A stretch of DNA of 64,000 nt from Desulfobacteraceae bacterium (GTDB taxonomy: Bacteria > Desulfobacterota > Desulfobacteria > Desulfobacterales > Desulfosarcinaceae). The first letter of the stretch is position 1, and the number at the start of each line of letters is the position of its first letter. Below are positions 60,657 through 63,855 of the stretch, in pieces. The stretch lies in NCBI GenBank assembly GCA_024230435.1, contig JAAERL010000021.1, forward strand, positions 1 to 64,000. Direction: 5' to 3'. Both the position numbers and the translations under genes were made by a program. The notes under the pieces were generated by a model. It made no database searches and was not told where the DNA came from. It saw only the letters and a program-made list of their open reading frames with translations.

Positions 60657-60744
60657 GCCTGGATGGCGGAATAGGTAGACGCAAGGGACTTAAAATCCCT
60701 CGGTATTTAATACCGTGCCAGTTCGATTCTGGCTCCAGGCACCA
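60657..60744 (+). tRNA. tRNA-Leu (anticodon TAA), CCA encoded
   Basis: The acceptor arms GCCTGGA and TCCAGGC pair over seven bases, followed by A and an encoded CCA. The anticodon loop CTTAAAA on stem AGGGA/TCCCT gives TAA, reading UUA and UUG codons. A long variable arm (CGGTATTTAATACCG) marks a class II tRNA. The T loop is GTTCGATTC. Confidence 0.97.
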
Positions 60745-60984: not shown

Positions 60985-61260
60985 ATGAACAAAGCAGATT
61001 TAGTAAATGCACTCAAAAACCATAATGGCTTTACGCGTTATGAAGCTGAAAAAATAGTAGATATTTTTTTCGGTACTATGGCTGACGCGCTCGCCCGGGG
61101 TGAAAGAGTGGAAATTCGTGGTCTCGGAAGTATTTTTGTCAAAGAGTATAAATCGTATGTAGGGCGCAATCCTAAAACAGGAGAGCCTGTAAGTGTAAAG
61201 CCCAAAAAACTGCCTTTTTTCAGATGCGGAAAAGAACTTAAAGAACGGGTGGATTTTTAG
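60985..61260 (+). CDS. HU/IHF family nucleoid DNA-binding protein
   Basis: This 91-residue protein of the HU/IHF fold has the N-terminal helices (MNKADLVNALKNHNGFTRYEAEKIVDIFFGTMADAL), saddle strand RVEIRGLGSIFVKEYKSYVGRNPKTGEPVSVKPKKLPFFRCGKELKERV. The beta arm has GRNPKTGE and the proline that intercalates DNA (SVKPKKLPFF). The features sit between HU and IHF-beta, and subunit identity is uncertain. It bends DNA and could assist sigma-54 promoters. It has its own promoter and is followed by repeat copy 6. Confidence 0.93.
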   Translation: MNKADLVNALKNHNGFTRYEAEKIVDIFFGTMADALARGERVEIRGLGSIFVKEYKSYVGRNPKTGEPVSVKPKKLPFFRCGKELKERVDF

Positions 61261-61281: not shown

Positions 61282-61449
61282 AGGCGATTTTTGCTAAAGA
61301 ATATAACATCTTGCTCATCTTTTTCTGATTCTGAACCGTTTTTACGGTTGTGTCAAAGGTCCGAATAGGTAACGTATGCAGACTTTGGCGCACCTTGAAG
61401 GCGAAAAAAGTTTCACGCAATATGATATATTCTTTTCCGCCAATCGCCT
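61282..61449 (+). repeat. Long-palindrome repeat, copy 6
   Basis: It is a full-length copy in the same sense as copies 1 and 3: AGGCGATTTTTGC at the left, the inner GTGTCAAAGGTCCGAATAG...GTATGCAGACTTTGGC in the middle, then TTCTTTTCCGCCAATCGCCT at the right. It follows the HU/IHF gene. Confidence 0.85.
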
Positions 61450-61638: not shown

Positions 61639-62085
61639 ATGCTAAATTACTCGCATACGTTAAAATTTCCGGCCGCAAAATCTAAAGACCGGTTAAAAAT
61701 TCCTCAATCAAAGATGGATGAGGCGCCGCTGGTTCAGGATGACTTACTTTCTGAAGAGGAAGAAAATTGGATCGTATGCAAACAGTGTGGCCAAGAGCTT
61801 GCCAAGCCAACCGAACGCGCTGATGTTAACGGATCACACCGGCATTCATTTGCAAATCCAAATGGGATAATATTTGAAATCGGATGTTTTTCCATAGTTC
61901 GCGGTTGCCGGAAATATGGTGTGCCATCCGCTGAATTTACATGGTTTCCGGGATATGCGTGGCAAGTTATTGTTTGCGCCAAATGTTTATCCCATTTGGG
62001 CTGGTTGTTTTTGTCCAGGCAAAGCGGCCATTTTTTTGGACTTATACTTGTTCAATTAGCGGAGCGGCCGTCCAAAAACCACTAA
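61639..62085 (+). CDS. CULT-domain (cereblon-like thalidomide-binding fold) protein
   Basis: A 148-residue protein with a non-conserved 40-residue head, then a complete CULT domain. Zinc ligands are C47, C50 (CKQC) and C113, C116 (CAKC). Three tryptophans, W102, W108 and W122, lie in FTWFPGYAW and GWLF. Their spacing to the second zinc pair is the same as the human cereblon triad W380, W386, W400 with C391, C394. HSFANPNGIIFEIGCF and FFGLIL complete the family lines. Bacterial single-domain CULT proteins are known from Magnetospirillum; the natural ligand is unsettled. The start at 61639 has a weak ribosome site; ATG at 61714 is the alternative. Confidence 0.85.
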   Translation: MLNYSHTLKFPAAKSKDRLKIPQSKMDEAPLVQDDLLSEEEENWIVCKQCGQELAKPTERADVNGSHRHSFANPNGIIFEIGCFSIVRGCRKYGVPSAEFTWFPGYAWQVIVCAKCLSHLGWLFLSRQSGHFFGLILVQLAERPSKNH

Positions 62086-62090
62086 ATAAG

Positions 62091-62273
62091 GTCAACAACC
62101 CCTCGGCTAAAGACCGAGGGGCTTGAAGAGGTAACTATTAAGCCCGGTTGATTAGCCTAAGCTCTTTGAGAGCTACGTTACACTGGAATATATAGTCACC
62201 CTGGAATACTCCACACGTTCCAGGCACAGAGGCGATTCATCCCCAAGGCTAAAGACCTTGGGGTTTTCTCACC
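62091..62273 (+). mobile_element. Relic or non-autonomous IS200/IS605-type element (two hairpins)
   Basis: Two hairpins bound a 180-base segment with no gene: CCCCTCGG/CCGAGGGG at 62099-62121 and CCCCAAGG/CCTTGGGG at 62251-62273. Both have the same loop CTAAAGA. The left one continues GGCTTGAAGAGG and the right is preceded by GGCGATTCAT and followed by TTTTCTC, which resemble the subterminal hairpins of IS200/IS605 elements. No tnpA or tnpB remains. The right hairpin with T tract may also end transcription of the CULT gene. Confidence 0.5.
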
Positions 62274-62431
62274 TCATCATTTTATAAAATTGTATACAAA
62301 CAGACAAATATAGGCTAAGGAATTCAAATTGCCGGGTATAGCATCGGATTTATAACCGGCTGGTTATTCAATTTAGTTATTCACTATGACTTTAAATTGT
62401 GCTTATAAACATAAAAAAGCACTATAGATTG

Positions 62432-62447
62432 TGTTTCACGTGAAACT
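62432..62447. promoter_or_regulatory. parS centromere site (ParB-binding)
   Basis: TGTTTCACGTGAAACT matches the near-universal parS consensus TGTTTCACGTGAAACA at 15 of 16 positions, with the full 14-base palindrome intact. Such sites bind ParB and lie mainly near the replication origin. The parAB genes and origin are not in the window. Confidence 0.85.
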
Positions 62448-62546
62448 GAATATCATTATCAATAAGAATCAGTGCATCGGCCGATCACAGATTGGACAAA
62501 TTGGCTATTTGTGCATTGGAACCGGTTTTCTTTCAATGGGTACGAC

Positions 62547-62744
62547 ATGACCAAAATATCCCATCTAATAGGATATGCCTGCGTTTTATTTGCTGCCATT
62601 ATTTTAGGAAATTGGTTTATCGCTGAATTAAAGAAAAAAACGGCCAATAGGGGAAATTGGTATAATCCGCTACTCACCATTCCCGGAATAATAATTATTA
62701 TAATAGTTTTAGCCATGCCTATCGCGGCCCGCTTGCTACGCTGA
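62547..62744 (+). CDS. Small two-span membrane protein
   Basis: From the ATG at 62547, 65 residues give two hydrophobic spans (ISHLIGYACVLFAAIILGNWFI and LLTIPGIIIIIIVLAMPIAAR) joined by a basic loop. A longer frame from 62472 exists but would start inside AT-rich sequence without a ribosome site. GGGTACG lies ahead of the ATG. I recognise no family. It precedes the radical SAM gene by 16 bases, so co-transcription is likely. Confidence 0.55.
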   Translation: MTKISHLIGYACVLFAAIILGNWFIAELKKKTANRGNWYNPLLTIPGIIIIIIVLAMPIAARLLR

Positions 62745-62760
62745 GTCAAACTCCGAATAC

Positions 62761-63855
62761 ATGTCAATAAAACACCTTTACGCAGACCCTCCACTTTTAC
62801 GGCATCAACGTGTTGCAGAAATAGCTGATAGACTTGAGCTTACGCCACAAGTGCTTGAAGACAAAAGCATACTATTCAAGCTTATTAAATCCAGCAATGA
62901 CCCCTGGCGTAAGGGCAAGGAAATTTTATGGTTATCAAACAATAAGGGGGCGTTTATCAAGCCATGCCCCGGAACGCGGGATTATTTATGTTGCGGATAT
63001 CAAATCCTTCACTTTGCGGCGTATTGTGTCATGGATTGCTCTTATTGCATTCTGCAAAGCTATTTTCATCCTCCCGTGTTGCGCTATTTTATCAACCATA
63101 ACGATTTATTTTTAGAGCTTGAGCAAATTTTTCAAAAAAATAGCATAGTGAGAATAGGAACGGGAGAATTTACAGATAGTCTTATGTGGGAGAACTTTTC
63201 AGATCTTACTCCCGATCTGGTTCACAGATTCTCTTCACAGCAGAACGCAATTCTGGAGCTCAAGACTAAAACAGTTAATATAAAAAAGCTTAAATTATTA
63301 CCTCACAACCGTAAAACGATTCTTTCCTGGTCACTGAACACACCGCAAATTATCAGCAAACAAGAAAGAGCTACGTCATCCCTGGATGCCAGGTTTCGAG
63401 CTGCAAGACAATGCAGTGACTGGGGATACCCATTGGCATTCCATTTCGACCCCATATTTATCTATCCGGGTTGCGAGAAGGAATACAAAAATGTTGTGAA
63501 AGAATTGTTCACCCATATCTCGCCATCCAATGTGGTTTGGATCAGCCTGGGGGCCTTTCGATTTATGCCCGCATTGCAGCAGGTTGTAAAACAGCGTTTT
63601 TCCGAATCGGATATTGTGTATGGAGAATTCATACCGGGCTTGGATGGTAAAATGAGATATTTCAAAAAGCTTCGAATGGACATGTTTAAGATTTTAGTTG
63701 AACAGATAAAGTCGATTTGCCCGGATGTGTTAGTTTATTTATGCATGGAAGATGAGCAGGTCTGGAACTATTGCTTTGGATATTCTCCTGATCAAAAAGG
63801 CGGGATTGCCGCTATGCTTGATGACAGCGCCCGGAGGCATTGTGATCTTGTGTAA
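62761..63855 (+). CDS. Spore photoproduct lyase (SPL)-like radical SAM protein
   Basis: The 364-residue protein has CVMDCSYC, a C-x3-C-x2-C motif (C89, C93, C96) in the context GYQILHFAAYCVMDCSYCILQSYF typical of SPL-family radical SAM enzymes. RIGTGEFTDSL follows, and the barrel strands ILELKTKT, TILSWSLNTP and LAFHFDPIF continue through to a C-terminal RFSESDIVYGEF...MRYFKKLRMDMF. SPL repairs thymine spore photoproduct in spore formers; relatives in non-sporulating bacteria have unclear DNA-repair or other roles. The ribosome site is weak. Nothing else is recognised to the window end (63856-64000). Confidence 0.85.
   Translation: MSIKHLYADPPLLRHQRVAEIADRLELTPQVLEDKSILFKLIKSSNDPWRKGKEILWLSNNKGAFIKPCPGTRDYLCCGYQILHFAAYCVMDCSYCILQSYFHPPVLRYFINHNDLFLELEQIFQKNSIVRIGTGEFTDSLMWENFSDLTPDLVHRFSSQQNAILELKTKTVNIKKLKLLPHNRKTILSWSLNTPQIISKQERATSSLDARFRAARQCSDWGYPLAFHFDPIFIYPGCEKEYKNVVKELFTHISPSNVVWISLGAFRFMPALQQVVKQRFSESDIVYGEFIPGLDGKMRYFKKLRMDMFKILVEQIKSICPDVLVYLCMEDEQVWNYCFGYSPDQKGGIAAMLDDSARRHCDLV

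Follow-up and report, generated by a model that had tools for sequence, protein, structure and literature searches.

A bacterial cereblon-type CULT protein with an intact aromatic cage, and leads to its role

Few drug sites are used as much in targeted protein degradation as the pocket of cereblon. To our knowledge, bacteria have no ubiquitin ligase of the cereblon kind, and the finding of a near-identical pocket kept in bacteria raises the question of the reason for it. We address this question at a locus in a stretch of 64,000 nt (the window) from Desulfobacteraceae bacterium (GCA_024230435.1, contig JAAERL010000021.1, positions 1-64,000, forward strand).

Fold, zinc site and cage of the CULT protein

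The gene and the parts of its conserved domain are as follows.

61639-62085 (+): single-domain CULT (bacterial cereblon-type) protein, 148 aa, ATG start, intact ORF (phmmer, AlphaFold2 model)
61765-62073 (+): CULT domain (beta-tent), residues 43-145 (model, superposition)
61777-61788 (+): first zinc CxxC (C47, C50), invariant among 54 sequences and aligned with the MsCI4 zinc site
61942-62004 (+): aromatic cage and second CxxC (W102, W108, C113, C116, W122), invariant in 54 sequences and in the MsCI4 register

Searched with phmmer against the PDB, the protein matches MsCI4 of Magnetospirillum gryphiswaldense, to which it is 42% identical, over its residues 46-145 (E 5.6e-27), and human cereblon at E values of about 1e-11 to 1e-13. 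The CxxC pairs at 47/50 and 113/116 and the tryptophans at 102, 108 and 122 lie where the original prediction for this DNA had placed them, and their W-6-W-5-C-3-C-6-W spacing is exact. In an alignment of 54 sequences, C47, C50, N73, G76, W102, F103, W108, C113, C116, G121, W122 and F132 are invariant; N73 and G76 belong to the NPxG hairpin (N73-P74-N75-G76). The full Cys/Trp motif, searched as C..C-(12 to 70)-W.{5}W.{4}C..C.{5}W, is kept in 174 of 174 homologous loci.

An AlphaFold2 model built from 54 relatives has a mean pLDDT of 85.6, with blocks at or above 92 across most of the domain. It superposes on MsCI4 (6r0q) with a VIA-align Z of 20.0 and an rmsd of 0.8 Å over 103 residues; model residues 43 to 145 pair with residues 20 to 123 of the chain, which places W102, W108 and W122 on W79, W85 and W99. 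The fit to human CRBN gives a Z of 18.2, an rmsd of 1.4 Å and 32% identity. The prediction had named tryptophans that fail to superpose on the cereblon cage, or a missing zinc site, as evidence against it; in both fits the three tryptophans are in register, and the cysteines of the predicted zinc site (C47/C50/C113/C116) align, so neither objection stands. Profile search, structure and the alignment of four Cys and three Trp residues thus all agree on a CULT-domain protein with an intact aromatic cage.

Pfam and NCBIfam scans of the protein gave no CULT family call, and the match to PF03226 (Yippee-Mis18) is below threshold (E 0.006, 17.1 bits versus a gathering cut-off of 26.6). A weak Yippee-Mis18 match without a Pfam CULT hit is expected of CULT proteins. 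That this match is the sole CULT-like Pfam hit would suit a Cys/Trp pattern arisen by chance, or an ordinary zinc protein of the Yippee/MsrB type that lacks an imide cage, a reading that is almost certainly wrong: we reject chance because of the phmmer matches to MsCI4 and human cereblon, and the cage invariant in 54 aligned homologs, the complete motif in 174 loci and the 0.8 Å fit, which we count as refuting, stand against it.

The closest known system is MsCI4 itself (cereblon isoform 4, MGR_0879, PDB 4V2Y and others), which has the same single CULT domain, zinc site, three-Trp cage and NPxG hairpin; the window protein differs in its longer, acidic head, with 46 residues before the first Cys versus 23 in the MsCI4 chain, and in the LKxP motif that this head carries. 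The thalidomide-binding domain of human CRBN has the fold and cage register in common with the window protein, which, unlike CRBN, is without a DDB1-binding part and without a LON domain (148 aa in total, no LON match in the Pfam scan). Yippee/Mis18 proteins (PF03226) are beta-tent relatives with a weak profile match, and the window protein falls under their Pfam cut-off. Outside the CULT domain, the Pfam scan and the model leave a short low-confidence head and no other domain. It is virtually certain that the protein belongs to group I of the bacterial CULT proteins of Lupas et al. 2015, of the MsCI4 type; it is an addition to a family already published in 2015, with a close homolog solved. 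That group was described as mainly delta-proteobacterial and as consisting wholly of the CULT domain (PMC4287342).

A candidate reader of cyclic imides

MsCI4 binds imides, thalidomide and uridine (PMC4287342, PMC4449219), and its solved complexes in the PDB include thalidomide, deoxyuridine and valerolactam. C-terminal cyclic imides are degrons of human CRBN (PMC12117711). From the fold and cage data and this published binding, we place cyclic-imide reading first among the possible roles, the reading of uracil in DNA repair second and the binding of a free metabolite third. The protein is most likely a soluble reader of cyclic imides, probably of aspartimide or glutarimide damage at protein C termini; that its main role is cyclic-imide reading in protein quality control has, in our estimate, a probability of about one half.

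We infer a natural ligand, a partner and an outcome along the following lines. Zinc would pin the two beta-sheets of the domain together, and the three-Trp cage and the NPxG hairpin would hold a cyclic imide ring (glutarimide, aspartimide or uracil-like). The protein could then capture, as human cereblon does, proteins whose C terminus has turned into a cyclic imide through Asn/Gln damage, with its acidic tail and conserved motif tethering it to a partner. Captured proteins might be delivered to a protease such as ClpAP, repaired or plainly sequestered.

PCMT1 is reported to make C-terminal cyclic imides (work cited in PMC13001092). PCMT-family genes were matched in 60 of 60 relatives, with or without CULT; this co-occurrence is uninformative because every genome matches and because PF01135 (PCMT) also hits other methyltransferases.

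Distribution and gene neighbourhood

The original prediction had taken bacterial CULT proteins to be few. Searches with a profile of 54 sequences overturn this: CULT occurs in 154 of 242 sampled genomes (64%) of the window's order. Of genomes drawn at phylum level, 29 of 297 carry it in the window's phylum, 44 of 195 in that of a Pyxidicoccus locus (L038) and 21 of 398 in that of a gammaproteobacterial MAG. In the phylum of a MAG labelled Chloroflexi (L037), the starting genome was the only carrier among 301. At the sensitivity used, searches of viral contigs, plasmids and phages returned no relative, and a mobile or phage role is therefore unsupported.

Candidates for CULT fused to other domains were set aside: the long ORFs looked like upstream read-through, many of them in G+C-rich DNA, and no conserved extension was seen in them by eye. 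Two genomes of the window's family carry a second, divergent CULT copy (L082:2478-2939 and L083:6164-6625) with 25-27% identity to the window protein, a different head and shared neighbours of its own.

The surroundings of the gene in the window contain the following features.

60985-61260 (+): DNA-binding protein of the HU/IHF family, usually found next to CULT on its upstream side in the bacterial family (PF00216, E 4e-30)
61282-61449 (no strand): imperfect inverted repeat (arms of 33 nt, 79%) within the HU-CULT gap, which is widened here
62091-62329 (+): HEARO/omega-like RNA lacking an adjacent nuclease ORF (Rfam RF02033, 71 bits, E 2.7e-12)
62472-62744 (+): small membrane protein with two helices; its downstream position is conserved among relatives
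62761-63855 (+): radical SAM protein of the spore photoproduct lyase (SPL) superfamily (PF20903, E 8e-23)

The CULT gene had been described as standing alone beside HU, an IS200/IS605-like relic and parS. HU is indeed its neighbour, with IHF-beta, below cut-off, as the nearest NCBIfam model, but the gene is not alone: of the 22 family loci that bear the main CULT copy, 17 have an HU/IHF-type gene immediately upstream in the same orientation. The intervening gap is -11 to 304 bp in relatives versus 378 bp in the window, where it holds the inverted repeat (arms at 61282-61314 and 61417-61449), a probable and possibly separate insertion relic. The relic downstream is present, with its identity corrected to the HEARO/omega RNA family; its RF02033 match of 71 bits is below the gathering score of 83, and it occupies the place that a gene termed c23 has in relatives. 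The parS-like site was confirmed as a palindrome, TGTTTCACGTGAAACT, at 62432-62447, with one mismatch to the consensus and a chance expectation of 0.01 per window. A tRNA-Leu (anticodon TAA) lies upstream of the HU gene at 60657-60744 (+).

Within the family, CULT follows HU and is itself followed by c23 and the membrane protein; the next gene encodes an SPL-like radical SAM protein in some loci and an XPB/RadD-like helicase in others. The window's radical SAM protein scores 102 bits against TIGR04070, under the 400-bit cut-off. The c23 gene (about 110 aa) is missing from some family loci, the window's among them. Further upstream, many loci have either RecC or else RecB plus RecD, in the latter case often together with a PilZ protein. 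A locus from another family of the order (L318) has c23, the membrane protein and the helicase in common and lacks HU. The c23 protein (e.g., L047:5564-5896, 110 aa) has 33 invariant positions across 13 sequences; Pfam gave no match of weight for it, and none of the fold matches to its model (pLDDT 93) was convincing (best Foldseek E 0.055, best Z 6.8).

A conserved block with varying flanks is consistent with an operon, and shared descent in one family explains it equally well. The block is also the ground for the main rival reading, in which CULT reads uracil or pyrimidine damage as one component of a module for DNA repair, alongside HU/IHF, components of RecBCD and either an SPL-like enzyme or a repair helicase. 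This fits the family gene order with RecC or RecB-RecD upstream, the HU gene that adjoins CULT in 17 of 22 loci and the binding of uridine by MsCI4 (PMC4287342). However, the repair context is limited to one bacterial family and L318, with unrelated neighbours in the other families read, and the flanking repair genes vary between genera and may reflect inherited gene order only; we regard the DNA-repair reading as rather unlikely.

The N-terminal motif and the Clp genes

Two features of the head ahead of the CULT domain bear on a possible partner.

61660-61671 (+): N-terminal short motif L8-K9-F10-P11, the window version of hydrophobic-[LF]-[KR]-x-P (head comparison)
61717-61767 (+): acidic linker, residues 27-43 (sequence; low pLDDT)

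The acidic excess is 6 within the 25 residues preceding the domain, and the first 40 residues of the model have a pLDDT of 55-64, which is consistent with a disordered head. The head had been called acidic and non-conserved; the first holds, whereas the second does not, as a short motif recurs across lineages. We compared the heads of 170 distinct CULT proteins, with start codons set mechanically. Usually 25-35 residues ahead of the first Cys, relatives have a hydrophobic residue, L or F, then K or R, often with P two or three residues on, followed by an acidic linker. This h[LF][KR] pattern is present in 98 of 169 heads versus 25.3 (sd 4.2) in shuffles; the reversed pattern is unenriched (21 versus 25.9). 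Counted per lineage, it occurs in 46 of 100 versus a shuffle mean of 17 and maximum of 29 (500 shuffles), a comparison that models kinship only through this lineage collapse and counts the motif in the same sequences in which it was spotted. The window's version, T7-L8-K9-F10-P11, carries T in place of the hydrophobic residue and stands slightly farther out, some 37 residues ahead of C47. We found no report of a CULT tail motif in the open-licence literature.

Conservation of the tail motif suggests a protein partner, and the head may be a docking motif on a flexible acidic tether. This argues against a third reading, in which CULT is a buffer or sensor for some free small metabolite (a cyclic imide, a hydantoin or a pyrimidine) and has no protein target. 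Such a role would suit a single small domain, published soaks in which nothing beyond the glutarimide or uracil ring is seen to be recognised (PMC4449219) and the neighbourhoods read across the order, among which no constant CULT gene partner was seen. Imide or pyrimidine degradation genes, however, do not recur beside CULT among annotated neighbours, and we consider this reading unlikely.

For cyclic-imide reading, the tail motif and a set of Clp-linked loci point to a partner candidate. In L037 and L039, near relatives despite their labels (ClpS 80% identical), the gene order is CULT-ClpS-ClpA, with a gap of 22 bp between CULT and ClpS in L037. In L040, L243, L247 and L248, ClpA is convergent to CULT at a distance of 0.1 to 3.4 kb, together with ClpS where the sequence extends far enough; in L067, ClpS and/or ClpA is found some 4 kb upstream of CULT, on its strand. 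L040 and L240 are the same contig, and this Clp-linked locus was counted once. Clp genes are thus near CULT in three independent lineages versus about 0.3-0.4 expected within 5 kb (Poisson p about 0.003-0.009), a statistic that is a lead and not a test because Clp was singled out after the neighbourhoods had been viewed. Most relatives, like the genome of the window itself, have CULT away from Clp genes. No report of CULT beside ClpS-ClpA was found in the open-licence literature.

That bacterial CULT is a Clp adaptor is a lead only. Its specific form, a C-degron adaptor of ClpS/ClpAP whose cage would take cyclic-imide ends while its tail motif docks on the protease, is quite improbable in our estimate; if true, it would make CULT a ubiquitin-free counterpart of the cereblon pathway. 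ClpS, the N-degron adaptor of ClpAP, serves as a working analogy only, that of a small adaptor-like protein with a tail, and neighbours CULT in some lineages; the window protein is unrelated to it in sequence (no PF02617 match). The wide spread in the order, the shared tail motif and the occasional links to Clp genes together give a testable lead on the bacterial role, and since the gene is common and chromosomal in one order, the question is accessible with an ordinary gene-deletion strain.

Across the order, ClpS is present in 146 of 154 genomes with CULT versus 59 of 88 without it (p 2.6e-8), and in genomes of good quality in 99 of 101 versus 33 of 46; two good-quality genomes have CULT and no detected ClpS. 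The association is borderline in a regression with genome size and completeness that left out 13 double-negative genomes (p=0.05), and at family level it has a p of 0.008.
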